Positions 1 to 17,431 of a stretch of 27,136 nucleotides of DNA are shown here, piece after piece. Made by a program: the position numbers and the translations under genes. Source of the stretch: a virus. Location: IMG/VR virus record IMGVR_UViG_3300043448_000512, positions 1 through 27,136 of that record; one strand, 5' to 3'. The number at the start of each line of letters is the position of its first letter. Position 1 is the first letter of the stretch. Under the pieces are notes generated by a model. That model was not told where the DNA came from. It saw nothing but the letters and a program-made list of their open reading frames with translations, and did no database searches.

Positions 1-3000
1 ACTTATTAACCGCTGGGTCAGTAAGTACATCTGCGAATGTTGACGCAAACATCATAAATTCAAATACTGAAAATGTCACTGGAAATGCAACAGTTGGTAA
101 CTTAATATCAAATGGTGTTGTTACAGCAACTGGATTAGTAAGAGGTGCTAATATATCTGCAGTTGCTAACATCACTGCTGGTAATGTTGTTTCTGCAAAT
201 AACATAACTACTTCAAATAATTTAACTGTTGGTAATTTAGCTAACGTTGCAAATTTAATTTCAACGACAAATATTAGTGCATACGGTAATGTTAAATCTA
301 ATATAGTCAATGCAAATACATTGGTTATTAATGCTAATGCAACACTTAATAATTTATCAGTGTCTAGTTTTGTTCAATCAAACTTAATTCCTAACGTAGA
401 CGATGCTTATTATTTAGGTATTCCTTCAAATAGTTGGCACAGTTTAGCAGTTAGTGATTCAGGTATTTCTATTGGTCAAACCTCATTGACAGCAAATGTA
501 ACTGAGTTAACAATAACAGCAACTAATACTATCATTCCATCAGCATCACTTACAGATTTAAATGTTGCAAACTATGCTAATTTAGGGTTTGTAAGTAACT
601 TAAGAATACTAGGTGGTAATGCAGGTGATGTATTATCGACAGATGGAAACGGAATCGTTTCATATGCTAACGTATTAACAATTGTTCCAGCTGCTGGTGG
701 CAATACTGAAATTCAATTTAATGACAATGGAGACTTTAACGCTTCTCCTTCTTTAAGATTTTATAAGAGTAATGGCGTAACTAGTGGAACATTCGCAGGT
801 AACGCTTCTAGATTATTTGGTATCACAGGTGCAAATATAACTGGACAAGTACCAAATGCAGTAGTTGCGACTACAGTAACTTTCCCATCACAAGCAAATA
901 TCACAGCAGTAGGAAATTTAAGTTCATTAAGTGTTGTGGGTAATCTAAGAGCAGGCAATGCTAATTTAGGAAACCTTGCAGTTGCAAATTTCTTAACAGG
1001 TGTATTAACCTCATCTAATCAACCTAACATTACTAATATAGGTAACCTTAATAATCTAACAGTAAGCAACATTGCTGGTGTAGTTAATTTTGAATATACA
1101 TCAAATGTAACACTTGGTCAAATTAGTAATTTACATATTGCTGGTGGGTTGAGTAATCAATACATAACAACTGATGGGTCTGGTAATCTATATTGGTCTT
1201 CACCAGTAGCTACCTCTGTAATTAATGGTTTAAGTGGAATGAATGTTGAACAAAATGGTAACATTGTGTTCACTGTAGCAGGATTTGGTAATAGATTTAG
1301 AATTGAGCAATCAACTTTCTCATCAAATGTACAAGGTTTATTTAATGAAGCAGTAAGTTTTTACTCAACTGTAAGCTTAGGTACAGTTGCAAATATCAGA
1401 ATATTAGGTGGTCAAACTGGGCAAGTTCTCACTACAACAGGAGTAGCAGGACAAATAGGTTGGGCAAGTGCTCCAGCAACTCAGTCTATTGTAAATGGTA
1501 ACAGTAATATTGTTGTAGGACCTAACACTAATATTCGTGTTAGCGTTGCAGGTACTCCTAACGTTGTATACTTTACTCAATTTGGTATAGAGACAGGTGT
1601 ATTACGTACTACTGACATAATAAACACTAATCTAGCAAGATTGGGTAATGTTGCTAATGTTAAAATTTACGGCGGTAATGCTAATGGTATATTAACAACT
1701 GACGGCACAGGTAATTTATTCTTTGCATCAGCACCAATTGCACCCACAATCGCAAATGGTTTAAGCAATGTCACTGTTGATTTGAGTGGTGATGTACGCA
1801 CTAGTGTAGCAGGGACACCTAACGTATTCATAGTAGCTAATACAGGAATCACTGTCAATGGTAGATCAAACCTAGGGTCAAATGCTAACGTAATCATTAC
1901 TGGTGGAGGAGCAAATCAGTTATTATCCACCGATGGAACAGGAAACTTAAGTTGGGTATCATCGCCACCAACATCACAAATTAGTAATGGAACAAGTAAT
2001 TTAACCATCAGTCAAAATGGAAATATAGTTGCTGTTGCTACAGGAACAACTGCACTTAATATTTCTAATTTAGGCATCAATGTTAATGGTGCTATTAATG
2101 CCACTGGTAATATTAACACAGATATTAATAGATTAAAAATAACAGGTGGCGTTGCTAATAGAATTCTAATTGCTGCTGATGCTAATGGTAATCTAGCTTG
2201 GGGCACTCTACCTGCAGCAAATCAAATAGCTGGTGGAAACAGCAACGTTTCAGTTAATCCAAATGCAAATGTGACTATTGGTGTTACTGGTGTTCCTAAT
2301 GTTGTTGTTGTGTCATCAAATAGAGTTAATATTACAGGTGATTTATCAGTTATAGGTAATGCAAACTTAGCTAATATAGACTCCTTAAATATCCCAGGTG
2401 GTAACGCAGGTGATGTTTTAAGTACAGATGGTACAGGAAACCTAAGTTTTGTAACCCCATCAGTTGGTACATCAATTGTTAACGGATCAAGTAATGTCCG
2501 TATTCCCGCAAGTGCTAGTAATATAACATTTGCAGTAAGCGGTACACCAAACGTATTTGTATTATCTCCGCAGTTAGCTAACTTAACAGGTAACTTAAGT
2601 GTTACTGGAAATGCAAATATAAATGGTAATGTAAACTTAGGTTCTGCATTAAGCGCAGCTGGTAACGTCATAGGATCAAATCTTATTACAGCGGGTGCGG
2701 TAACTGCAACAGGAAATATATCAACTTCTCTAAACTTATCTGTTACAGGTAGTGCAACAGTTACTGGTCAATTGAATACTGGTGTAGTGACTTTAGGTAA
2801 TTTAATGTCAGGATCTGGTAATATAAGTATTACCGGTAATATAACAGGAAATAGAATATTAGGAAATACATTAAGTACTACTGGTGACATCACTGGAAAT
2901 AACTTAGTTGCAGGAGCAAATGCAAATGTTGGTAATTTATTTGCAACTAACACAGTAAGTGCTGCAGGAAATATCGCTGCAGCTACAAATATAACTGCTG

Positions 3001-6000
3001 CAGGATCAATATCTGCAATAGGTAACATAACAGCAGACAGATTTATAGGAAATGGTGCATTACTCACGAATGTAACAGCAAACGTTGCACGTATTGCCAA
3101 TGGCGTAAGTAATATCAATATTCCAGTAGCAAACGGAAATATAACTGTAACAGTTGGTGGTGCAAGTGTCGCTACCATATCACCTGGTAACTTTAGTATT
3201 ACTCCTGACACAGGAATAGGTGGTAACTTAAGTGTATTTGAAAACATCACTGCAGGAAACCGAATCACTGCTAACGGTACTATAACTGCCGTTGGTAATA
3301 TTACAGGTAATTACTTATTTGGTAATGGTGCATTCTTAACTGGTGTTAACACAGATATATACAACGACGCCAATGTAGCAAATTACTTACCAAATTACAC
3401 CGGAAATATCAGCAGTGTCAATAATATTACTGCTTCCGGAATAGTTAATACAAGCGGATTAAGAGTATCGTATTTAAGTACCTCATCCAATACAACATTA
3501 ACTGCAAATAGAGCAGGTGCTCTAGTTGATGTTGTTAATAGCAGTTACCAAATTATATTGCCTACCCCAGTAGGAAATCAAGGTGTTAATTTTACATTTA
3601 GATTAAGACAATCGGGACAGTTTGTTACTCTCATAACACCTAGCGGAACATTTGAGGGATCAGGTTATACAGGAACAGGTACTGTAATAATTTCTTATGC
3701 TATTGGTCAATTCTTCTACGTTTACAGTGATGGTTCGAAGTACATAATTTCTGCAAGAATTGAATCGGAAACAGGTGCAGGATTAAGGGTTCGTACAGGT
3801 GTACAATCTACGTCAACAACAACTGGTGCATTAGTTGTTACAGGTGGTGCTGGGTTCAGTGGAAATATTTATTCAGGCGGTAACGCTGTAATTTCAGGTG
3901 CATTACAAATCGGTGGTTCATTTGTTGCTACCGGTGCAAATATTACTCAAGTAACAGGAAATGTATTTGGTAGAACTACAAGTAATATAGTAATTACAAA
4001 TGGTGACACAGGTAATGGTGAAATCGCCATACGTGCTGGTGGTGCCATAATTCAAACAATTAATAACGCAAACGTAACAGTAAATGGAAATATTACTGCG
4101 ACAGGTAATATCTCTGCATCAGGTAATTTCGCTGCTCCATTCGCAAACGTAACAGGAAATGTAACTACACCTACGATAATTGTAAACACGATTACTAGTA
4201 ACGCAACAAATAATGCTAACAGCACCACTAACATATTTGCTAATAGTGTTACTGCAGGTTTGTTAAGTGCTAATGGTAGTGTGGTTGTAAACAATTTAAT
4301 AGGAATTCATGCTAACGGTAATATCACTAACGTTCAGAACCTTCAAGTAAGTAATGTTAATGCACAAAATATTACAGCGCCTGTATTCAATACAGGAAAT
4401 ATTAGTGTTTCTGGTAATGTTGTAGCAAATGGTGTAGTCCATTCAAACAATGTTGGTACAGGTAATAACTTTAGAGTAGGTAATAGTGTTTGGTTAGGTG
4501 ATCGTAATACATCTGACAGTTTAGCTGTTAGAGGTCAGCAAAACGATACAGTTGGTTATGTAACATTTGGTTCTGACTCAACTGCTAAACTAGGTCGTAG
4601 CGGTACAGGACCATTAACATGGAATAGTAACTTATCTGTCAGTGGTACAATTACTGCTAATAATTTCGTTGGTAATATTAATGTAGCTAATACGGACCTT
4701 TCAGCAAACAGCTTTACTTCTAACACATTTACTGGTGGTAACTTTAATGGAAGATTAATTACTACAGTTACTGGTGCAAATACAGTAGAAATGATTCGTG
4801 CGAATATCGCAGGACCTACTAATGCCGATTACTTCAGTGTTGACGTTGGTGGCACTAATCAAGACTTTGGTTATGTTTCATTCAACACAGGCGATAATGG
4901 TTCAGAACCAATTTATTTCAGACAATATAATGGTTCTAATATTCAAAGACAAGTTACATTATTAGATCAAAGTGGTAATACAACTTTCCCTGGCAATATA
5001 AGCACAACAGGTAATGTAGCAGCTAGCAACTTAATAGGTAATTTAACTGCATTTATCGGTGCTCCGCAAACAGCAAACATTATTAATGCAGTAATGGCAG
5101 GTAGTGACGCATTTAGACTACAAATAGGTGGTAATCTATCTGACCAAGGATATGTTGCACTAGATGTAGGTGATGAGAATACTGAAAGTATTATATTCAG
5201 ACAATTTGCCGGAGCAAATTTTGCAACTGAAATACGTAGAGTAACATTACTTAATTCACAAGGTAACGCTACTTTCCCGCAAACTGTTTCTGCAACCGGG
5301 TTCTTAGGAACTAGTTTAAGTGTTTCTGGCTCAATAACAGGCGCTACTATTAGCGGTACTATTAGTACAACTGGAAATATAAATGCAGGCAATTTTGTTG
5401 GTAATCTATCTGCTACTCTTGCAAATGCAACTGTTTTTAATGGCGCTAGTATAAATTTAACATCTAGCGCAAACGTTGCTCAAGGAAGTGTGATTGCAAA
5501 TGTTTATGCAGGTAATACAGTAAGTGTTACAGGCACTATATCAGGAAGTAGTTTAATTGGTAACTTAACTGCCAGCGCATCTAATGTTACAAGCCGCACA
5601 GGTGGCAATATCAGCGTAACTGGCAATATTACTGCAAACAATGTTAGTACTGTAAGTGATGGCACAGGAAATAACTATGCGGTTGGGAATGACGCCTTTA
5701 TTGGGGATGCTAACGTAGCAGATACAATACTAATAAAAGGCCAAAGTAATCCTGGAAATGGTTTCATAATCTTTGGTACAGCAAATAATAGTCAAACCTT
5801 AGGTAGATCAGGAACAGGACCACTTACATACACCGGTAATATAAGTGCTACAGGAACTATCACAGCAAATAACTTTGTAGGTAATTTTAATATTGCAGGT
5901 AGCGATTTAACAGCTAATAGTTTCACTGGTAACAACTATTACGGTGGTAATTTCTTCGGAAAATTAACTACAAATACCATTACAGGTTCTAATACAGCAG

Positions 6001-9000
6001 AAATTATACGTTCCAACATTGCTGATAATGATTACTTTAGAGTGATTGTTGGTGGCACTGGAACAGATCAAGGTTACGTTTCTTTTGAAACAGGTGATGG
6101 TGGTAATGAGCCGATATACTTCAGACAGTATAACGGTGCAACTATACAGAATGAAGTTACACTATTAGATTCAACTGGTAATTCAATATTTGAAAATATT
6201 ACAGCGAACAACTTTGTTGGTAATTTACGTGTTACTACTCCTACAGTGTTTACTAATACTAGTATTGTTAGTGGTACAATGGCATCAACAGATGGATTTA
6301 GATTAGTAATTGGTGGTTCTGCTACAAACCAAGGATTTGTTAATATTGATACTACCGATGGGTCAAGTAATTCACCCACTCCAATCACATTTAGGCAGTT
6401 TAGTGGTTTAGCTTATAATTCATTAGTTCGTACATTAACTCTACTTGATAATAATGGGAACAGCGTTTTCCCTGGTAATATCACAGCATCTGGTAATGTT
6501 TCGGCATTAGGTAATCTTTCTGTTTCTGGTAACATTACAGTTCCTCAGTTAAATGCTGGTGGTAACATAAGCACAAGTGGAAATATTTCTGCAGCACAAA
6601 CTATAAGTGCTATAGGAAATATAAACACATCATCCACTTTAAATGCAACAACAGTTTCAGCGACCGGTTCAATTATAAGTAGTACTACTATAAGAGGTGC
6701 TACATTATCTGCAACAGGAGAGGTAAGTGTAAACGGTAATATAAGTGCCGTAGGTAATCTCACAGCAAACAGAGTTTCAGTAACACTTGTAACTGCAACA
6801 GGCAATATTAGTGCTGGTGTAAATCTTTCTGCTACAGGCAACGTTCAAGGAGGTACGTTGATTGGTAATGTATCAGCATCAGCAGCTTCTATAACAAGCT
6901 TAACTGGAACGAGCGCAAGTTTAACAGGTAATATAACAGGCGGCATATTAATTTCTACAGCAACAGGCACAGGGCAAAACTTTAGAATTGGTTCAAGAGC
7001 TTGGATTGGTGAAGTAAATGTAAATGACACTTTAATTGTAACAGGCCAACAGAACGCTGCAAATGGTTATATAATATTTGGTAATGGAAATAATAGCCAA
7101 AGTTTAGGTAGAGCAGGTACAGGACCGTTGACATATTCAGGAGATATGTCACTTAGTGGTAATGTGACTGCTAATAACTTTGCAGGAAATATTAATATTG
7201 GAAATGCAGACATCAGTGCAAATAGCTTCACATCTAATAATTTCTATGGTGGCAATTTCAACGGCTTACTTACATCAAACACATTAATAGGTTCAGCTAA
7301 TGGTAATCTAATCTTAGCTAATATGGCTACAAATGATTACTTTAGGTTGACAATTGGAGGAACAGGTGTAAATCAAGGATTTGCCTCGTTTGATGTAGGT
7401 GATGATGGTACAGAACCAATATATTTTAGACAGTACAATGGTGCAAATATACAGAATCAAGTTACACTACTTGATGCTGTGGGTAATACAATACTACCAA
7501 ATAGTCTAAGTGTTACATCAAACATTACCTTAGGTGGTAGTATAAGTTTAGGTGGCAATATTAGCACTAGTGGTAACATAACGGCTAATGTAATAAATGG
7601 TAATTTACAAGTATCAGTTAGTGGCACAACATCTGCTAACGTAATTTCAGCAGCAATGGCTAGCGGTGATAATTTTAGATTACAAGTTGGCGGAACAGGA
7701 ACAGATCAAGGATTCGCTTCCTTAGATATTGCTGATAATGGTAATGAACCTGTCTACGTCAGACAATATGTTAATGTAGCAGGTAATGCATTTGGTTCAA
7801 TCCTACGTCAGGCTACATTGTTAGGTTCAAGCGGTGAAACAATATTCCCCGGTGATTTAAGTGTAGGTGGCAATCTATCTGCTGCAGGAAATATTGTCAC
7901 TACAAGTAACTTCACAGTTGCGAACTTAAGCGCAACCGGAAACGTTCTTGCATCACAAAGAATAAGTGCTACAGGTAACATTACTACCGCATCAAATATT
8001 TCTGCAGTAGGAAGTATCATTGGTGGCTCATTTAGCACAGCAGGAATAATAAGTGCAACAGCAAATATTACTGCAGGAAATCTTACAACTGCAGGTCAAG
8101 TTTCAGCTACAGGTAATATTACAGGTGCAAATGTAATAGCTGGAAATCTTTCTGCAACTGGTAATGTTAACGCACCAACTCATATTGGTACAACTGTAAG
8201 TGTTTCAGGTAATATCACAGGTGCAAATCTATTTGGTAATTTAAGTGCAACGTCTGCAGTAATTACTAACTCAACAGGTACAACTGTAAGTGTAACAGGA
8301 AGCGTTACTGGAGGTACAGTAGTATCTAGTGCAACAGGTACTGGACAAAACTTTAGAGTAGGAACCACTACTTGGTTAGGCGATATTGGTGTCGTAGACA
8401 CGTTAATGTTAAGCAGCCAAGGCAACGCTGCAAATGGATATATCGTCTTTGGTAACGGAAACAATTCTGCTAAGTTAGGTCGTGCAGGAACAGGTCCATT
8501 GACATATTCAGGAGATATGTCTCTTAGTGGTAATCTAACAGCAGGTAATGTTCTAGCTAACTTCTCACTAACAGGTGATGTAAATGCAAATAGCTTTACG
8601 TCAAATAACTTCTTTGGTGGTAACCTAAACGGAACATTAACATGTAATACTCTAACAGGTACTCAAACTGCAAACTTGATATTAGCAAATATTGCTACTA
8701 GTGACTACTTCAGAGTAACCGTTGGTGGCACAGCAGCAGATAATGGATTTGTAAGTTTTGATGTTGGTGATAATGGAAACGAATCAATATTCTTTAGACA
8801 GTATACTGGTGCTTCAACTGTAACAAGAGAAATAACTCTACTTGATGCAGCTGGAAACACATCATTGCCTGGTAATTTATCTGTAGTTGGAAATATTACT
8901 ACTGCAAACAGTATTACTGCTAACAACTTCAATGGTAATTTAAATATTAGTGTTGCAGGTTCAACAACTGCAAATATAATTAATACAACTATTGCAGGAA

Positions 9001-9899
9001 GTGATTACTTTAGACTACAAGTAGGCGGTACAGGACCAGAATTAGGATTTGTGTCGTTGGATACTGCTAATGATGGTAATGAGCCAATATATGTTAGACA
9101 GTATATTTCAACACAGCCTAATCCATATAACGCAATCAATCGTCAGTTAACACTACTTGATAGTAATGGTCAGACAATATTACCGGGTAATCTAAGTGTA
9201 GCAGGCACCACTACAGTAGTAAACTTAACTGCTAGTGGTAGTTTAACCGGTGCTTTCATCTCTCCGACATTAACTGGTACAGCTAACGCCAATGTATTAC
9301 TCGGAACTATCGCAACTGATGACTACTATAGAATTCAGGTTGGTGGTACTAGTGCAAATGCTGGATTCTTGTCAATAGATACTGCAGATAATGGAAATGA
9401 ACCAATTTATGTACGTCAGTATACTACTGGTGGATCAGGACCGTTTACAACAGTTACTAGAGAACTTGCACTATTAGATAATACTGGTAACACAAGTTTA
9501 CCTGGCAACTTAATTATCAATGGATCAAATAGCACACAATTTGTAAGTGCTTTAGGTTCCGCTTACCGAATAGGATATAGAGGCTATCCAGTACAGTCAT
9601 TAAGTACAAGTTATACCGTAACTGTAAATGATCCTGGATTAACATTATTATTCAGTGGACAAAGTGGTGGCACATTGTTGAATATTCCTACAAATCTTTC
9701 AGCAGCTATTGCTATAGGTGCAGAAATGCGTATCATAAACAACGATGCATCTCAAAGTATCACAGTTCAACCTGCGATAGGGACCACACTAAGATATCAG
9801 GGCGGTACAGGAGCAAGAATACTGTCAACTTTTGCTGACGTTACATTAATTAAGGTCGCAACTGATACTTGGTACATAAACGGTTACGGCATAACTTAA
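1..9899 (+). CDS. Giant repeat-built tail fibre / adhesin-like protein (5' end outside window)
   Basis: The frame is open from the first complete codon (position 3) to the TAA at 9897-9899, giving at least 3298 residues with no natural start in view; the TTG at 321 is internal. The sequence is extremely rich in Gly, Asn, Ser, Thr, Ala and Ile/Val, lacks Cys-rich or catalytic motifs, and consists of short units of the GNITA / ATGNIS type. Larger modules are layered on this: seven STDGTGNLSW-type modules (about 590-2600) and nine DYFR..GG..EPIYFRQY..TLLD modules (about 4820-9490). An STSTTTGALVV motif near 3810, which I recall from marine phage fibres, follows a tip-like domain. The last ~110 residues look like a compact C-terminal domain. 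The likely role is host attachment as a long fibre; the repeats suggest beta-structured, probably trimeric shafts (inference). It lies upstream of a late-type promoter and a second virion-type gene. A non-fibre surface or decoration protein is the main alternative. Confidence 0.75.
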   Translation, partial: LLTAGSVSTSANVDANIINSNTENVTGNATVGNLISNGVVTATGLVRGANISAVANITAGNVVSANNITTSNNLTVGNLANVANLISTTNISAYGNVKSNIVNANTLVINANATLNNLSVSSFVQSNLIPNVDDAYYLGIPSNSWHSLAVSDSGISIGQTSLTANVTELTITATNTIIPSASLTDLNVANYANLGFVSNLRILGGNAGDVLSTDGNGIVSYANVLTIVPAAGGNTEIQFNDNGDFNASPSLRFYKSNGVTSGTFAGNASRLFGITGANITGQVPNAVVATTVTFPSQANITAVGNLSSLSVVGNLRAGNANLGNLAVANFLTGVLTSSNQPNITNIGNLNNLTVSNIAGVVNFEYTSNVTLGQISNLHIAGGLSNQYITTDGSGNLYWSSPVATSVINGLSGMNVEQNGNIVFTVAGFGNRFRIEQSTFSSNVQGLFNEAVSFYSTVSLGTVANIRILGGQTGQVLTTTGVAGQIGWASAPATQSIVNGNSNIVVGPNTNIRVSVAGTPNVVYFTQFGIETGVLRTTDIINTNLARLGNVANVKIYGGNANGILTTDGTGNLFFASAPIAPTIANGLSNVTVDLSGDVRTSVAGTPNVFIVANTGITVNGRSNLGSNANVIITGGGANQLLSTDGTGNLSWVSSPPTSQISNGTSNLTISQNGNIVAVATGTTALNISNLGINVNGAINATGNINTDINRLKITGGVANRILIAADANGNLAWGTLPAANQIAGGNSNVSVNPNANVTIGVTGVPNVVVVSSNRVNITGDLSVIGNANLANIDSLNIPGGNAGDVLSTDGTGNLSFVTPSVGTSIVNGSSNVRIPASASNITFAVSGTPNVFVLSPQLANLTGNLSVTGNANINGNVNLGSALSAAGNVIGSNLITAGAVTATGNISTSLNLSVTGSATVTGQLNTGVVTLGNLMSGSGNISITGNITGNRILGNTLSTTGDITGNNLVAGANANVGNLFATNTVSAAGNIAAATNITAAGSISAIGNITADRFIGNGALLTNVTANVARIANGVSNINIPVANGNITVTVGGASVATISPGNFSITPDTGIGGNLSVFENITAGNRITANGTITAVGNITGNYLFGNGAFLTGVNTDIYNDANVANYLPNYTGNISSVNNITASGIVNTSGLRVSYLSTSSNTTLTANRAGALVDVVNSSYQIILPTPVGNQGVNFTFRLRQSGQFVTLITPSGTFEGSGYTGTGTVIISYAIGQFFYVYSDGSKYIISARIESETGAGLRVRTGVQSTSTTTGALVVTGGAGFSGNIYSGGNAVISGALQIGGSFVATGANITQVTGNVFGRTTSNIVITNGDTGNGEIAIRAGGAIIQTINNANVTVNGNITATGNISASGNFAAPFANVTGNVTTPTIIVNTITSNATNNANSTTNIFANSVTAGLLSANGSVVVNNLIGIHANGNITNVQNLQVSNVNAQNITAPVFNTGNISVSGNVVANGVVHSNNVGTGNNFRVGNSVWLGDRNTSDSLAVRGQQNDTVGYVTFGSDSTAKLGRSGTGPLTWNSNLSVSGTITANNFVGNINVANTDLSANSFTSNTFTGGNFNGRLITTVTGANTVEMIRANIAGPTNADYFSVDVGGTNQDFGYVSFNTGDNGSEPIYFRQYNGSNIQRQVTLLDQSGNTTFPGNISTTGNVAASNLIGNLTAFIGAPQTANIINAVMAGSDAFRLQIGGNLSDQGYVALDVGDENTESIIFRQFAGANFATEIRRVTLLNSQGNATFPQTVSATGFLGTSLSVSGSITGATISGTISTTGNINAGNFVGNLSATLANATVFNGASINLTSSANVAQGSVIANVYAGNTVSVTGTISGSSLIGNLTASASNVTSRTGGNISVTGNITANNVSTVSDGTGNNYAVGNDAFIGDANVADTILIKGQSNPGNGFIIFGTANNSQTLGRSGTGPLTYTGNISATGTITANNFVGNFNIAGSDLTANSFTGNNYYGGNFFGKLTTNTITGSNTAEIIRSNIADNDYFRVIVGGTGTDQGYVSFETGDGGNEPIYFRQYNGATIQNEVTLLDSTGNSIFENITANNFVGNLRVTTPTVFTNTSIVSGTMASTDGFRLVIGGSATNQGFVNIDTTDGSSNSPTPITFRQFSGLAYNSLVRTLTLLDNNGNSVFPGNITASGNVSALGNLSVSGNITVPQLNAGGNISTSGNISAAQTISAIGNINTSSTLNATTVSATGSIISSTTIRGATLSATGEVSVNGNISAVGNLTANRVSVTLVTATGNISAGVNLSATGNVQGGTLIGNVSASAASITSLTGTSASLTGNITGGILISTATGTGQNFRIGSRAWIGEVNVNDTLIVTGQQNAANGYIIFGNGNNSQSLGRAGTGPLTYSGDMSLSGNVTANNFAGNINIGNADISANSFTSNNFYGGNFNGLLTSNTLIGSANGNLILANMATNDYFRLTIGGTGVNQGFASFDVGDDGTEPIYFRQYNGANIQNQVTLLDAVGNTILPNSLSVTSNITLGGSISLGGNISTSGNITANVINGNLQVSVSGTTSANVISAAMASGDNFRLQVGGTGTDQGFASLDIADNGNEPVYVRQYVNVAGNAFGSILRQATLLGSSGETIFPGDLSVGGNLSAAGNIVTTSNFTVANLSATGNVLASQRISATGNITTASNISAVGSIIGGSFSTAGIISATANITAGNLTTAGQVSATGNITGANVIAGNLSATGNVNAPTHIGTTVSVSGNITGANLFGNLSATSAVITNSTGTTVSVTGSVTGGTVVSSATGTGQNFRVGTTTWLGDIGVVDTLMLSSQGNAANGYIVFGNGNNSAKLGRAGTGPLTYSGDMSLSGNLTAGNVLANFSLTGDVNANSFTSNNFFGGNLNGTLTCNTLTGTQTANLILANIATSDYFRVTVGGTAADNGFVSFDVGDNGNESIFFRQYTGASTVTREITLLDAAGNTSLPGNLSVVGNITTANSITANNFNGNLNISVAGSTTANIINTTIAGSDYFRLQVGGTGPELGFVSLDTANDGNEPIYVRQYISTQPNPYNAINRQLTLLDSNGQTILPGNLSVAGTTTVVNLTASGSLTGAFISPTLTGTANANVLLGTIATDDYYRIQVGGTSANAGFLSIDTADNGNEPIYVRQYTTGGSGPFTTVTRELALLDNTGNTSLPGNLIINGSNSTQFVSALGSAYRIGYRGYPVQSLSTSYTVTVNDPGLTLLFSGQSGGTLLNIPTNLSAAIAIGAEMRIINNDASQSITVQPAIGTTLRYQGGTGARILSTFADVTLIKVATDTWYINGYGIT
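590..2600 (+). repeat. Seven diverged coding modules (GG.....LSTDGTGNLSW type) in the giant fibre gene
   Basis: Protein-level tandem repeat of roughly 80 residues. Each copy has a GG-x(4)-[LI]-[ST]-T-D-G-x-G-[NQ]-[LI]-x-[WFY] core, followed by an NG.SN[IV].[IV] segment and a [VF].GTPNV-type segment. Copies begin near 600, 1135, 1395, 1665, 1890, 2140 and 2385. They have diverged too far to be obvious DNA repeats, so the array is old or under diversifying change. An eighth partial relative (ANGVSNINIP) is seen near 3090. Boundaries are approximate. Confidence 0.75.
4440..9490 (+). repeat. Four long and nine short repeated modules in the giant fibre gene
   Basis: A long module of about 180 residues occurs four times, starting near 4460, 5668, 6972 and 8343. 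It runs from a [WF][LI]G[DE] segment through a GYI.FG..N....LGR.GTGPLT core and an ANSFTSNNF..GN segment to a DYFR module. The shorter DYFR module of about 50 residues (DYFR..[IV]GGT...GF.S.D..D.GNEPIY.RQY ... TLLD) occurs nine times, near 4824, 5101, 6028, 6289, 7333, 7666, 8698, 8998 and 9316. Five of these lie outside the four long modules. This indicates repeated duplication of two nested units. Boundaries are approximate. Confidence 0.8.
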
Positions 9900-10008: not shown

Positions 10009-11121
10009 ATGGGACGCCCTTTAAAAATAGCAAAAACAAACGCAGCAGCAAGTCCAGATGGAGTAACTGACCAAGGTTTTCCTAATGACGGTACTACTGA
10101 TAACGGTTATACCACAAGCGAAGTAGGTGTAGTTGGTGGTGTTCGTGCTGTTGCACTATACGGTGGTGTATGTATAGAACAAAACTGGTATGGTACATAC
10201 TATGCAAGTACAGGTTCTGCTGTAGTAAGTTCACAAAACGCAGGAACATTGAATAATAATGAATTAGAAAATGATTCATTAATATATTATGATGGCACAT
10301 ATGTAGGAACTGTATCAAGTACTAACGCAGCAGTAAGTATGACTACAGCATCAACTGCATCAGCTACAGACTTAGTAACCGTTGATGACACTACAGGATT
10401 AGTAGTTGACGGTGCAGTGGTATTTGGTGCTAACATTGGTGGTTTAGTTGCAAATACAGTATATTTTGTAAAAACAGTACCTGATGGAACTACATTCACT
10501 GTAAGTGAAACAATTGGTGGAACATTAAAACAGTTAACAAACGACACTGTTACAACAACAGCAGTACAATCAGAAACTATTACTTTAGATGCAAATGCAG
10601 CAGTTGCAATTAATGGTGGTAGTATTACCGTAGCAACTCAAGACAGTGGCTATGTTCTACGTCAAAAAGGCAAGAGAAAATATCTTGTAGCAAGAGCAGA
10701 CACCATTCAAGATGAATATATTGCTACAGGCGGTACATATCGTATTCAAAGTGTAGGAGACACTGACTGGGCAGCATTAGGTGCAGGTCCAGACGCAGCA
10801 GTAGGTAAAGTATTTACAGCTACAGCAGATGGATTAGGATTAGGTACAACTGGTAGTGTCTATGCTGTTGGTGTTTGTACTTTAGTTAATGATGCTCAAG
10901 CTAATTTAACTAAAAATCAAATGACATTAGATATAGATAAAGATGCTCCTGAAACAGATGTATATGCATCTACTGTAACTAACAAATTTGCATTAGACTT
11001 TACTGACAATGGTACAGATGAAAATGCAGGAACTAAGTATTTGGCATCATTTGATGCAAAAACTAATACTCCAGATCCAGCTACTGGTCTTATCACAGTT
11101 GATTTTGATTACGCTTGCTAA
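10009..11121 (+). CDS. Probable virion structural protein of the marine T4-like phage type
   Basis: This is a 370-residue, low-charge protein rich in Thr, Ala, Val, Gly and Asp, with no signal peptide or membrane segment. The N-terminus (MGRPLKIAKT) and a segment around residues 243-285 (YRIQSVGDTDWAALGAG ... FTATADG.G.GTTGSVY) resemble short domains I recall in structural proteins of T4-like cyanophages and related phages. A late-type octamer, an aaggag ribosome binding site 10 nt before the ATG and a strong terminator directly downstream make this a one-gene transcription unit. That suggests high late expression, as for a capsid decoration or fibre-associated protein. The exact location in the virion cannot be told from sequence, and the family name is recalled rather than searched. 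Confidence 0.6.
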   Translation: MGRPLKIAKTNAAASPDGVTDQGFPNDGTTDNGYTTSEVGVVGGVRAVALYGGVCIEQNWYGTYYASTGSAVVSSQNAGTLNNNELENDSLIYYDGTYVGTVSSTNAAVSMTTASTASATDLVTVDDTTGLVVDGAVVFGANIGGLVANTVYFVKTVPDGTTFTVSETIGGTLKQLTNDTVTTTAVQSETITLDANAAVAINGGSITVATQDSGYVLRQKGKRKYLVARADTIQDEYIATGGTYRIQSVGDTDWAALGAGPDAAVGKVFTATADGLGLGTTGSVYAVGVCTLVNDAQANLTKNQMTLDIDKDAPETDVYASTVTNKFALDFTDNGTDENAGTKYLASFDAKTNTPDPATGLITVDFDYAC

Positions 11122-11177: not shown

Positions 11178-11861
11178 ATGATTAAACATAGACTACCCGA
11201 AACAAGAGGACATTTCAATTTTGGTTGGATTGATTCTTATCGTACCTTTAGCAACAATACATACAACGATCCTAAATACACTAACTTTAGTGACTTAGAA
11301 GTTATTAATGACGACCGTGTTCAACCAAAAAGTTTTACTCCAATTCATCAACACAATGACATGGAGATCATAGGCTACGTAGTAAAAGGACCTTGCTTTC
11401 ACAATGATAACTTGATGAACAAAGTCGAAGTCCCAAGCGGCGGTGTGCAACGAATGAGTTCAGGTACAGGTATTTGGCATTGTGAGGGTAACTTAAGTGA
11501 TGAACCTATACACTATCTACAATTATGGATGAGAGCAGCAAGACACAACTTTCCTCCCAAATATGATGTGTGGGTATTTGATCGTGAAGAAAAATTAGAT
11601 AATTTCTGTCCTATTGCAAGTAGTGAAGGTCCTGTTGTCATACAAAGTTATGCAAAATTATATGCAGGGATTTTTACTAAAGACTACACCGTACAATTAG
11701 ATACTACTCGCAGATACTATCTTTATATAATTACAGGTAGTGCTGATATTAATGGTATTGAAGGTTATACAGGATCAGGATTTAGTTTTGAAAATGAAAG
11801 TGAACTAATAATTACTAACCCAGAAGAAGAACCTGAAATATTACTCTTTAACCTTCGTTAA
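11178..11861 (+). CDS. Pirin family cupin protein (possible quercetinase-like dioxygenase)
   Basis: This 227-residue protein matches the pirin pattern from its first residues (RGHFNFGW.DSYRTFS), which fixes the start even though no ribosome binding site is visible. The four metal ligands expected from the bacterial pirin YhhW are present at the same positions: H57, H59 (HQHNDMEI), H101 and E103 (WHCEGN). Bacterial pirins of this type are iron or other metal-binding bicupins, and some have quercetin 2,3-dioxygenase activity in vitro; their cellular substrates are uncertain. Length is near the family norm of 230-290. The intact metal site argues that the protein is functional and not a relic. 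It ends in a 21-bp convergent overlap with the Nudix gene. A host-derived metabolic or stress function is inference. Confidence 0.88.
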   Translation: MIKHRLPETRGHFNFGWIDSYRTFSNNTYNDPKYTNFSDLEVINDDRVQPKSFTPIHQHNDMEIIGYVVKGPCFHNDNLMNKVEVPSGGVQRMSSGTGIWHCEGNLSDEPIHYLQLWMRAARHNFPPKYDVWVFDREEKLDNFCPIASSEGPVVIQSYAKLYAGIFTKDYTVQLDTTRRYYLYIITGSADINGIEGYTGSGFSFENESELIITNPEEEPEILLFNLR

Positions 11862-12257
11862 TTGTTCTAACTTATCTTTAACAACATCAAAGTTTACAGT
11901 ATTAAATAGTCCTGGGTGTAGAGGTTTAGGATAATTGTGTACATCCACCCAACAATACCCGATGTGTTCTTCATTAAGAACTGGGATAAATTCGTTTTCT
12001 ATAGGACAAAAAAATGTATGATAAGTGAATGTGTTGTTAACAAATTTTTGTATAGGAATTAATTTAGCATTTGTAGGGAAGTATTGAATTTCTTCTTGAC
12101 ATTCACGTGCTAAGCCTTCAAATATAGTTTCGTTCTTTTCTAGTTTACCGCCTGGTATACCCCAAAAAGAAGAATCTTCATTTCGTAACAAGAACAAAAA
12201 TCTATTCGTAGCTATTGAGTAGAAAAAAACACCTGCACTTGTATTTGATTTGCTCAT
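11841..12257 (-). CDS. Nudix hydrolase
   Basis: This 138-residue protein carries a clear Nudix box at residues 37-59: G37-x5-E43-x7-R51-E52-x2-E55-E56, preceded by FWGIPGGK. The usual Gly near the end of the box is replaced (IQYF in place of .xG.). Nudix enzymes hydrolyse nucleoside diphosphates linked to another moiety; the substrate here cannot be predicted. It is not obviously the T4 NudE type. The ATG at 12257 lies 17 nt beyond the end of gp15 on the same strand, with no Shine-Dalgarno but with a late-type octamer ending 5 nt upstream. It is convergent with the pirin gene. Confidence 0.9.
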   Translation of the reverse strand: MSKSNTSAGVFFYSIATNRFLFLLRNEDSSFWGIPGGKLEKNETIFEGLARECQEEIQYFPTNAKLIPIQKFVNNTFTYHTFFCPIENEFIPVLNEEHIGYCWVDVHNYPKPLHPGLFNTVNFDVVKDKLEQLTKVKE

Positions 12258-12274: not shown

Positions 12275-13651
12275 TTAAATTACTACGCTAAAATCTCCAG
12301 CAGCATACCAACCTTCCCATGACTTCATCCATGCGTTATTAACAAATCTGTACTGTAAACCTGAAGTTAAATTAGTAACGTATTGAACATCAGTTAACAG
12401 TGTGCTGTCAAAACTTACGAACCATTCTCCAATAACACCATCATATTCTATGATATCATTAGCATGTGCAACCAGTGGTCCCCAACCTTCCGTAGCACTT
12501 AGTGGTATGTTGCTGCCAATATCTTCAACAATTAAGTATCTTTGACCAGGTGCAGCATTAGGTAGTCCATTACCCGGCGATTTTACGTGTGGGTTGATAA
12601 CACTATCAACTGCCCCTAATGTATTTTGTGGCAATGTGTCAGGGTCAATATTAAAAATTAATAATCTATCATCAGTTGGATTAAATGCAATCGTACCAAC
12701 AATTTCTGTATCCATATAAGGATTCTCTAGCCAAATTTGACTGATACCAGGACGTACAGTTCCATATACATTTAAGAATGCTTTCCAGTATATATTTGTA
12801 TTTGGATTAGTTGGTAGATCCATGCTTTCATTATTGGGATAGAACGGTGTACCATCAGGTAATATTTGTAAACTATTACCCAATAACAATAACTTGTAGC
12901 CATATGGTGTGATTTTTTGTCTAGTACCTAACAATAAATCATCATCTTGCATATCAGTAATTGCATTTCCTTGGAATATACTTGCGATAATTTTGTATAT
13001 AACACCAAGCTTTTTAACTTTTGCACTTGAACTAATCCATATAGGCATATAAAAAGTCCAAGTCATTATGTCAATAGGGTTACCAGATCCAACAGGAAGA
13101 GTTCTACTACTGAATGTAAGTCTGTCTTGATACACAACACTTAAACTTGTCCAATCAATAAAGTTATCTGTGCTTTGTATTTCCATACTAGGATTAAACA
13201 ATACACCTAATTGTTCTAATAACTCTAACTTTTGATTATAGTTTGTTGTCCAAAAATCAACAGTGATACGCAATGTATAGGGAACAGGCATTAATCGTTC
13301 TACACTAAACGCATCCCCTTGCGTCTGTTCAAATGTTTGTGTTTCTTCATTGAATGTTCTTCTACGTACACTTGTTTTATCTACAAAGTAAGGACTTTGA
13401 GTACGTGTTTGATCGTATTCTAATCCAGATATGTAATACGTTATCATAGGTGCACTAGGCATGCTACTAGGACTATTATTAGCAATTACAGTGGATGCTT
13501 GTCTACTTTGATCGCCATATTGAATAGGAACTCTAATTAAAATGTCATTACCGGCAGGATCTTTACCCTTAGTAACATACCAGTTACTAAAAATTCTAGC
13601 AAACTGAATTAGAAAACGTCTTATTTGATTGTCGTAAAAATATTGTGCCAT
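12275..13651 (-). CDS. 15: Tail sheath stabiliser and completion protein (T4 gp15-like)
   Basis: The 458-residue protein begins MAQYFYDNQIRRFLIQFARI, with RVPIQYGD following at about 41-48. This matches the T4 gp15 start pattern (YFYNSSFRRY...RVPITY). A middle region with a VERLMPVPYTL segment, NQKLELLEQ..VLFNPS and PIWISSSAKVKKLG is typical of marine T4-like homologues. gp15 forms the hexameric terminator ring at the head-proximal end of the tail and contacts the neck protein gp14 and the last sheath ring. It is much longer than T4 gp15 (272), with a C-terminal extension from about residue 225. It is translated from ATG 13651 with an aagga ribosome binding site, 8 nt downstream of gp14, so the two are probably co-transcribed. 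Confidence 0.85.
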   Translation of the reverse strand: MAQYFYDNQIRRFLIQFARIFSNWYVTKGKDPAGNDILIRVPIQYGDQSRQASTVIANNSPSSMPSAPMITYYISGLEYDQTRTQSPYFVDKTSVRRRTFNEETQTFEQTQGDAFSVERLMPVPYTLRITVDFWTTNYNQKLELLEQLGVLFNPSMEIQSTDNFIDWTSLSVVYQDRLTFSSRTLPVGSGNPIDIMTWTFYMPIWISSSAKVKKLGVIYKIIASIFQGNAITDMQDDDLLLGTRQKITPYGYKLLLLGNSLQILPDGTPFYPNNESMDLPTNPNTNIYWKAFLNVYGTVRPGISQIWLENPYMDTEIVGTIAFNPTDDRLLIFNIDPDTLPQNTLGAVDSVINPHVKSPGNGLPNAAPGQRYLIVEDIGSNIPLSATEGWGPLVAHANDIIEYDGVIGEWFVSFDSTLLTDVQYVTNLTSGLQYRFVNNAWMKSWEGWYAAGDFSVVI

Positions 13652-15546: not shown

Positions 15547-16743
15547 ATGTCCCGCAAGTCAAAAAACTCAGATCATGCAATGATTAAAGCCCTTAATCCT
15601 AAGGACGGGGACACAAAATACACAGGTGACGAGCCGTTTTTCGCAATTCAGCCTGAGCCAGAATTTCGCAATAGTGCATTGGCTAGAGCATTTAGTTGGT
15701 ATACTAGATTCTATGTGCGTAAGGACGCTAAGGATCTTATGATTCAATATTTAGAACTTAATGATCGTAAGGCAGATGCAAAGATTTTGGCTAAAGCACC
15801 CGAAAGTGAAATTCTTACCACTTACGGTTGGTTAGCACGAATGACATTGCGCGGACTGCAACTTAATGAGCATGAAGAATTAAGTTTGCAAAATGAACTA
15901 ACTCGCCTCATGACTTGCGTACACAAGCCTGAAACTGTGTTCAAAAGTAATCTTACCCCACAGGAAGTAGAGGTAGAAGAAAAGCCAGAAGTTAATCGCC
16001 CCAACGTTCAAGAAATCATGCGTGAAAAAGCACGTGAGGCGACAGGTGAAATCATTGGACTGTTTGATGAGTTTATTGAAGCTGGAATGAAAGGCAATTT
16101 GCCAGGTAAACCTATTGATATTCTTGCAAAGTATAACATTCTGCCACAACATATTCCCATCATACTTGACGTTTGGAAGAAAGAACTTAACGAATGGTAC
16201 GAAGTGCAAGAGGGTAAAGACCCACAACTTGTTGAGGGTTACAGCCAGTTCGGTAAAGTACAAGTCAAAAACATGATTAAGGCTATTGAACAAGTTATTA
16301 GTGACCTCAATAGTTATATCAGTATCAAGAAAGCAAACAAGACTCCACGTAAGCGTAAGCCTGTGCCAGTTGAGAAGATTGTAGCAAAACTCAAGTATCT
16401 AAAAGAGTTTAAAGACCCTGCTGCAAAACTTGATTTAGTAAGTGTGCATCCAACTAAACTGCATGGTGCAAGTGAAGCGTGGGTTTATGATACTGCAAAG
16501 CGCAAACTGCATCACTATGTTGCAGACCAGTATAGTCAGACATTTACAATCAAAGGCAACACGATACTTGGCTTTGATACAGGCAAGAGTGAAATCAAAA
16601 CATTGCGTAAGCCAGGTGAACAACTCAAAGAAATTATGGGTAGTAAGCCTGCAGCCCGTAAGTATTTTGAGGGTATCAAAGCAACTGCAACTGCACCTAA
16701 TGGTCGCTTTAATGACAATATGCTAATCCTTCGGTGCTTTTGA
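15547..16743 (+). CDS. Uncharacterised basic phage protein, probably early
   Basis: I do not recognise a named family in this 398-residue, Lys- and Glu-rich soluble protein, so no function is assigned. It has an N-terminal alpha-helical part (about 40-125), an acidic linker (139-149), a second helical segment (150-260), a strongly basic stretch (261-282, KKANKTPRKRKP) and a C-terminal domain (about 290-398, including HPTKLHGASEAWVYDTAKRK and NTILGFDTG) that looks like a conserved domain of marine T4-like phages. The basic stretch would suit nucleic acid binding (inference). The gene has a consensus sigma70 promoter, unlike its structural neighbours, so early expression is likely. Its last 21 bp overlap the convergent GIY-YIG gene. 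Confidence 0.7.
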   Translation: MSRKSKNSDHAMIKALNPKDGDTKYTGDEPFFAIQPEPEFRNSALARAFSWYTRFYVRKDAKDLMIQYLELNDRKADAKILAKAPESEILTTYGWLARMTLRGLQLNEHEELSLQNELTRLMTCVHKPETVFKSNLTPQEVEVEEKPEVNRPNVQEIMREKAREATGEIIGLFDEFIEAGMKGNLPGKPIDILAKYNILPQHIPIILDVWKKELNEWYEVQEGKDPQLVEGYSQFGKVQVKNMIKAIEQVISDLNSYISIKKANKTPRKRKPVPVEKIVAKLKYLKEFKDPAAKLDLVSVHPTKLHGASEAWVYDTAKRKLHHYVADQYSQTFTIKGNTILGFDTGKSEIKTLRKPGEQLKEIMGSKPAARKYFEGIKATATAPNGRFNDNMLILRCF

Positions 16744-17340
16744 TTTGCGAGGTCCCCTCATCTTTGCTAAAGATTCTTCACTATGTTTAAACTTTCCTTT
16801 CATGGGTGAGGGTCCTCTCTTAGGACTAATTCGTTTAACTTTGAGGGGACCTTTTGGTCCTCTCATTTTGGCTTTATGTTCTTCAGTTAAAGTTTTTCCT
16901 AATTTTGATTCACTAATTTTTTTGCGCCATTCTTCAGTGAATACTCTTCCGGTTAATTTCTCACTGGTCAATTTTTTACTTTCCTCGCTGTGCTTTTTTC
17001 CTTTATTGAGTTGCTTTCCAAAATGTCCGTTTTTTGAACCAACGCATCCAGCATGACCAACAGGAGCTCCGTCGTTTCCGTTTTCTTCTCTTAGATTAGC
17101 CCACCGGGTTGAATTAACTATGTTATTATCTTTAGAAAATTTAAGCGCAAATGAAGTACATTCAGACAATGATTGGAATTCCCAAATCTTCAAAGTTTTA
17201 ATATGTTCTGATCCATGTTGTTTAATATGTCGTTGCCAATATTTTCCCGAACCATGATACCGATTTACATTCTTTGTTGTTTTGCCGAAGTATTTTAATC
17301 CAGTTTTAGTGTGTACTTTTATATACAAGTAAATAGTCAT
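16723..17340 (-). CDS. GIY-YIG homing-type endonuclease with NUMOD3 repeats
   Basis: The 205-residue protein starts at ATG 17340, preceded by aaaagga at good spacing; the upstream GTG at 17415 has no such site. Residues 3-21 (IYLYIKVHT..GLKYFGKT) are the variant GIY-YIG motif, followed by Y28-x-GSG-x-YW and a catalytic-type Glu near 54. The C-terminal part has four NUMOD3-like DNA-binding units (about 114-131, 131-149, 148-161 and 181-196; GK.HSEE..KK, TEE.RKKISE, TEEHKAKM). Such proteins are free-standing homing endonucleases (T4 Seg type) that spread between phage genomes. The gene sits between the end of the 398-residue gene, which it overlaps by 21 bp, and a plus-strand terminator. Confidence 0.92.
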   Translation of the reverse strand: MTIYLYIKVHTKTGLKYFGKTTKNVNRYHGSGKYWQRHIKQHGSEHIKTLKIWEFQSLSECTSFALKFSKDNNIVNSTRWANLREENGNDGAPVGHAGCVGSKNGHFGKQLNKGKKHSEESKKLTSEKLTGRVFTEEWRKKISESKLGKTLTEEHKAKMRGPKGPLKVKRISPKRGPSPMKGKFKHSEESLAKMRGPRKSKAPKD

Positions 17341-17365
17341 GCTGACATTCCTTTTCAATGTTAGA

Positions 17366-17401
17366 GTCCTTGGGTTTGGGAGAACCGCGAAGGACATTTT
17401 T
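17366..17401 (+). terminator. Plus-strand intrinsic terminator behind the GIY-YIG insertion
   Basis: An outer stem (gtcctt / aaggac, 17366-17371 and 17390-17395) and an inner stem (ggttt / gaacc with a GGGA loop) are followed by attttt. It points in the sense of the 398-residue gene. It may be that gene's original terminator, now separated from it by the minus-strand endonuclease gene, and it also shields the next early promoter. Confidence 0.7.
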
Positions 17402-17402
17402 G

Positions 17403-17431
17403 TTGACACAAACACCTGTTTGTGTTATAGT
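17403..17431 (+). promoter_or_regulatory. Early sigma70 promoter of the small-protein/Pal/MazG operon
   Basis: TTGACA (17403-17408) and TATAGT (17426-17431) are separated by 17 nt, which is near consensus. The predicted start is about 17438, 28 nt before the ATG at 17466, with an aagg ribosome binding site at 17456-17459. Confidence 0.8.
17406..17425. promoter_or_regulatory. Candidate operator: palindrome filling the promoter spacer
   Basis: acacaaaca-cc-tgtttgtgt is a perfect 9-bp inverted repeat with a 2-nt centre. It lies exactly between the -35 and -10 hexamers of the early promoter, overlapping the last three bases of the -35. Its position and symmetry fit binding by a dimeric regulator; none is identified in this window. 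Confidence 0.5.

Follow-up and report, generated by a model that had tools for sequence, protein, structure and literature searches.

What kind of protein is encoded by a reading frame that runs from the left edge of a viral contig for 3,298 codons, and by what route could a single gene have reached such a size? The window analysed here is the whole of the 27,136-base IMG/VR virus contig IMGVR_UViG_3300043448_000512, with nothing in the record past either end, and it begins inside this gene. We propose, at a probability of roughly three in four, that the gene specifies a giant virion fibre of a jumbo myovirus, most likely a fibre of the tail or baseplate, which was enlarged by in-frame duplication of its modules. 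In the open-licence literature searched for giant repeat-built phage fibres, this gene family is not described.

Gene neighbourhood and full extent of the frame

The comparison with related viruses relies on the following genes of the window.

3-9899, + strand: giant fibre gene, C-terminal 3,298 aa; the frame has no stop at the left edge
10009-11121, + strand: companion gene, 370 aa, directly 3' of the fibre gene, as in relatives (about 370-476 aa)
11841-12257, - strand: Nudix hydrolase gene (PF00293), part of the syntenic frame
12275-13651, - strand: gp15-like tail sheath stabiliser (PF16724, phrog_11196), the anchor for the synteny comparison
21089-24640, + strand: tail sheath, 1,183 aa (PF17482)

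The fibre gene and the sheath stabiliser gene are separated by 2.4 kb, and a Nudix gene likewise adjoins the sheath stabiliser in Pseudomonas phage PA5oct. By tblastn, the nearest sheaths are those of Agrobacterium phage Atu_ph07, Sinorhizobium phage Phosso and PA5oct (42-47% identity). The structural block of the window also codes for a virion structural protein (phrog_11591), a head-tail adaptor (Ad2) and two tail-tube proteins, and contigs with near relatives reach 364 kb. The source phage is most likely a jumbo myovirus.

Some other genes in the window are worth recording in their own right. Positions 11178-11861 hold a phage-coded Pirin-family protein (PF02678 with Pirin_C_2), for which a gene of equal length occupies the same place in the relatives G002 and G006. 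A homing endonuclease gene, NUMOD3-bearing and GIY-YIG-like, lies amid the structural genes at 16723-17415 (- strand), and an OmpA-domain protein (PF00691, 68.8 bits), Pal-like and with a lipoprotein-like N-terminus, is encoded within the structural block at 18153-18692. The tail-tube family phrog_4542 is matched by two neighbouring genes, 24684-25313 and 25321-26493, the second far longer (390 aa). The gene that starts at the right edge (26854-27135) encodes an N-terminal domain like that of TnsA endonucleases (PF08722).

An earlier note on this DNA had described an uninterrupted frame of at least 3298 residues, open at the left edge, and frame 3-9899 is exactly that. Its closest relative, G001 (locus L223), carries the complete gene, uninterrupted from ATG to stop and 4,486 aa long, and the window aligns with residues 1189-4486 of it at 93% identity. 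By this alignment, the window's gene is truncated solely by the start of the contig, its first 1,188 residues lying off the contig. Other full-length relatives are G002 and G006 (4,921 aa), which are identical and are therefore counted as one version, and G007 (4,925 aa); the frame of G008 is 5'-complete and 3'-cut at 3,537 aa. The fibres of G001, G002, G006, G007 and G008 all begin with MAIIQISKIQHRTGANVDLPQLAEGELGFATDERRLYIGND, and in every full-length frame an exonuclease gene lies 38 bp away.

Module order within the fibre

Units were counted with HMMs that were seeded with the units of the window and then iterated across relatives, s3 for STDG and s1 and s2 for the WLGD and DYFR units. 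The nine DYFR units scored 94-121 bits, the four WLGD-type units 106-115 bits and the seven STDG units 56-87 bits, compared to a best control score of 4.3 bits across 100 shuffled copies and one reversed copy. All features below are on the + strand.

558-2561 (residues 186-853): seven STDGTGNLSW-type units, none of which appears in shuffles
558-746, 1092-1298, 1356-1568, 1620-1829: STDG units 1-4
1848-2054, 2094-2309, 2343-2561: STDG units 5-7
2973-3167 (residues 991-1055): weaker eighth STDG-type unit (s3, 43 bits)
3168-4451: non-repeat segment, with residues 1166-1290 conserved across the whole giant clade
4452-5303: super-unit 1 (WLGD 4452-4724, DYFR 4767-5018, DYFR 5061-5303)
5304-5657: GN[ILV][ST]A-rich spacer
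5658-6503: super-unit 2 (WLGD 5658-5933, DYFR 5979-6197, DYFR 6252-6503)
6504-6962: GN[ILV][ST]A-rich spacer
6963-7877: super-unit 3 (WLGD 6963-7238, DYFR 7287-7526, DYFR 7617-7877)
7878-8333: GN[ILV][ST]A-rich spacer
8334-9527: super-unit 4 (WLGD 8334-8606, DYFR 8652-8897, DYFR 8955-9212), the span including the terminal DYFR
9270-9527: extra terminal DYFR, after super-unit 4
9573-9896: C-terminal tip domain, C-terminal in other phage proteins as well

The order in the second part of the fibre is thus four times [WLGD+DYFR+DYFR], one more DYFR and the tip domain. The counts given in the earlier note (seven STDG units, four long units, and four plus five DYFR units making nine) agree exactly with the HMMs, and its picture of repeats arranged in order holds, but its two module families are in fact three, with WLGD+DYFR+DYFR recurring as a regular super-unit. 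Likewise, the hexapeptide-like character it ascribed to the GNITA spacers is borne out by the commonest motif spacings, 6 and 12 residues, and not by Fourier analysis of the GN[ILV][ST]A spacers, in which period 6 is not in excess, probably because of register shifts. The spacer at 6504-6962 matches a FapA beta-solenoid profile with an E of 2e-5, below that profile's cut-off. At the DNA level, a search for simple tandem repeats gave only two weak 18-bp arrays. We also considered whether residues 1166-1290 represent an internal, former C-terminal tip, and rejected this on a profile comparison with the real tip (probability 0.8%).

Together with the part that lies off the contig, the full-length architecture consists of an Mtd_N domain, about 12 STDG units, four or five [WLGD+DYFR+DYFR] blocks with GN-repeat spacers, and the tip. 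Single-chain AlphaFold models are nearly all beta, with pLDDT of about 70-85 for DYFR, about 85-93 for the tip and mostly below 60 for WLGD; the model of the N-terminus is poor (mean pLDDT 63). PDB sequence profiles gave no match for the fibre queries A1 and A2. We propose that the Mtd_N end would anchor the fibre to the particle, that the repeated beta domains would form a long shaft, probably as a homotrimer, and that the C-terminal tip might contact the cell.

Orthologues and growth of the array

A gene with the same N-terminus is present at the same locus in some thirty loci checked, in the order exonuclease gene (phrog_298), fibre gene, and then, contig permitting, the 370-476-aa companion and the sheath stabiliser; the gap between the exonuclease and fibre frames is mostly 17-45 bp. 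The length of these orthologues ranges from 119 to 3,148 aa, with a median of 615 (n = 57 with their end in view, the full-length giants not among them), so that relatives' fibres are roughly seven times shorter than the giant form of ~4,500 aa. A typical short orthologue is made of Mtd_N and one STDG unit, five or six have in addition one WLGD, mostly near the C-terminus, and the smallest of those bearing WLGD, at 188 aa, is Mtd_N, WLGD and a short end. Intermediate orthologues of 1,386-1,392 aa have two STDG units. Among the ORFs searched, 4-5 WLGD and 9-11 DYFR units occur only in the window's clade, other ORFs having mostly single copies of WLGD or DYFR, with rare exceptions. The giant forms cluster together in the sheath-stabiliser tree (SH-aLRT 97).

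Large size is also seen in a few other frames, three of which are intermediates in which the same gene has lengthened in a different way: L249 (3,148 aa) has five STDG units without WLGD or DYFR, L256 (1,633 aa) has five STDG units, and L248 has 14 in over 2,888 aa of a frame that is cut. At L190 (13219-20514, - strand), the corresponding flank of the sheath stabiliser is taken up by a GN-rich frame of 2,432 aa, in which 'ANVSGAVAFATTANAV' motifs recur and which has another N-terminus. Strictly speaking, then, the giant fibre is not the only large frame at this locus. At the other end of the protein, the short orthologues L211, L207, L215, L175 and L191 have an ADLAEYYE...IIEVAVGRL-type end domain in place of the tip, which points to exchange of the C-terminal end between relatives; in L211 this domain has a weak Peptidase_G2/IMC match, below cut-off.

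A comparison of unit number among relatives, suggested in the earlier note as a check, shows four against five super-units and nine against eleven DYFR units: the 4,486-aa form and the window have the smaller numbers, the 4,921-4,925-aa forms the larger, one super-unit accounting for ~435 residues of length. In the unit tree, the first two units of near relatives cluster by position with full support. Unit 4 of G002, G003, G007 and G010 forms a separate clade, and the distance from the window's own unit 4 is shortest to the terminal unit 5 of those four. The extra block may have been gained in the 4,921-4,925-aa forms or lost in the window's line.

That the giant fibre grew by internal duplication, and long ago, is well supported by sequence comparison. 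Identity among the units of the window is 49-61%, compared to 91-95% with their G001 orthologues, and no two super-units share more than 23 nt of exactly matching DNA, a stretch that is the only one in the gene to repeat any 20-mer. These values indicate that the duplication is old, and they do not support frequent unequal exchange at present. The growth by recombination between units envisaged in the earlier note is therefore upheld as nested duplication, not as a frequent process of today, for which the units have diverged too far and share too little DNA. Concerted evolution of units was considered as well and not seen, the unit tree sorting mostly by position and not by virus. Repeated in-frame duplication would have acted on modules that are single in short orthologues (STDG, WLGD) or in other phage fibres (DYFR), perhaps mainly on the branch to the window's clade, with the giant form held thereafter by purifying selection.

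One tract of the gene, 6603-7202, differs from G001 at only 13 of 600 nt, whereas the lowest count among 2,000 codon permutations was 32. It spans a spacer and WLGD unit 3, and divergence elsewhere is several times higher. From the base differences, this looks like recent recombination between the lineages of the window and G001.

Probable location and possible reach of the fibre

Several lines of evidence bear on the role of the protein. One of its DYFR units matches the tail-fibre families phrog_10316 (E 3.7e-7) and phrog_20242. Its tip domain is the extreme C-terminus of other phages' proteins of about 155-2,160 aa, which include two of Sinorhizobium phage Phosso annotated 'tail fiber' and 'minor tail'. 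The N-terminal 40 residues of the full-length relative G002, a part of the gene outside the window, match Mtd_N (PF18454) at 33.0 bits with a cut-off of 26.3, and Mtd_N is a domain from a receptor-binding tail protein. The likeness to Mtd proteins lies in this N-terminal domain of the full-length relatives; the Mtd C-type-lectin variable domain at the other end has no Pfam match in the window's 3,298 aa, whole C-terminus included. We favour a place on the tail or baseplate.

The strongest competing explanation, which we nevertheless consider unlikely, is that the protein forms a head or tail-sheath 'hair' (whisker), as on Atu_ph07, CBB or 121Q, instead of a receptor-binding tail fibre; hair-like fibres do occur on the capsid or sheath of related jumbo phages (PMC6102473, PMC11242549). 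Sheath homology puts the source phage near Atu_ph07, and the N-terminal 40 residues also match two head-protein PHROGs weakly (E 3e-4 and 6e-3). The tail-fibre families found with DYFR, the position of the gene by the tail sheath stabiliser and the derivation of Mtd_N argue against such a hair. That the protein is made during infection as an adhesin outside the virion, or as a secreted repeat protein, is far less probable: although the composition (rich in N, G, T, S and A, pI 4.6) resembles that of bacterial adhesins and one record labels a homologous tail-fibre gene 'putative autotransporter protein', the gene has a conserved position in the virion structural block, its modules are homologous to tail fibres, an Mtd_N domain stands at the N-terminus, and the C-terminus is the tip domain, with no autotransporter barrel by Pfam. 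An assembly join or collapse of separate fibre genes, which might be suspected in a repeat-rich gene within or near which several contigs stop, is not credible and was rejected, because relatives have full-length, uninterrupted frames with the same order in several contigs from different metagenome data sets, the repeats have no more than 23 exact bases in common, and the window aligns with G001 without a gap over all 3,298 codons with dN 0.042, dS 0.426 and dN/dS 0.10.

Several known systems can be compared with the proposed tail or baseplate fibre. In Klebsiella Jiaodavirus phages such as UTI-K1, the T4-like distal long tail fibre shares one DYFR-type module with it: the DYFR HMM matches its N-terminal stretch at 57 bits (E 1e-19), with 34% identity around the module. 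In contrast to the window's fibre, the UTI-K1 fibre is three times shorter (1,510 aa), has one DYFR without WLGD or STDG, belongs to a gp34-gp37-type cluster and ends, by eye, in an S74-type chaperone-like C-terminus instead of the window's tip. A T4-type gp34-gp35-gp36-gp37-gp38 cluster is absent around the window's fibre gene, which is preceded by the exonuclease gene and followed by the genes for the 370-aa companion, pirin and Nudix proteins.

At the same locus in PA5oct, beside the Nudix and sheath stabiliser genes, lies the putative tail fiber protein H, EST35_0159 (1,008 aa), annotated as detected in PA5oct virions by MS. We rejected it as an orthologue: it has no unit HMM match, its N-terminus is unlike that of the window's clade, and its end is S74-type chaperone-like by eye; it therefore lends support to the locus but not to the protein. 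Related jumbo phages do have giant structural proteins about as long as the full-length fibre, namely AUZ94962 of Atu_ph07 (4,449 aa) and gp58 of Sinorhizobium phage AP-J-162 (4,455 aa, PMC11242549). AUZ94962 has different termini, adjoins a baseplate-wedge-like gene and matches none of the three unit HMMs, and was likewise rejected as an orthologue. Compared by description, RaK2 gp098 (Alcyoneusvirus) is also a jumbo-myovirus protein, a baseplate-associated secondary receptor-binding protein whose gene adjoins the baseplate/tail/capsid module (PMC10253068); it is about 600 aa long, and the portion of that account consulted does not describe a repeat array.

Lastly, we need to consider what the length of the gene might mean for the particle. 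T4 fibres have roughly 18 residues per nm. By analogy, the giant fibre could be near 250 nm long, which exceeds the 136-nm tails of Atu_ph07 (PMC6102473) and PA5oct, the latter as reported. The window's fibre is a phage fibre with an unusual, phylogenetically traceable length change. Tip swapping is a known way for phage fibres to change; there is less evidence that shafts encoded by a single orthologous gene change in length. A broader reading, to which we give somewhat less than even odds, is that the length of one orthologous virion-fibre gene is tunable in evolution ~40-fold (119 to 4,925 aa), whole shaft modules being gained and lost while the N-terminal anchor stays fixed and the tips can be exchanged; fibre reach would then differ several-fold among related jumbo phages. 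Since single-copy, intermediate and giant forms of one syntenic gene exist side by side in these phages, the steps of growth can be traced, and a cultured member would allow tests of how fibre length affects adsorption; the relatives of one virus thereby show how a giant fibre can lengthen or shorten.
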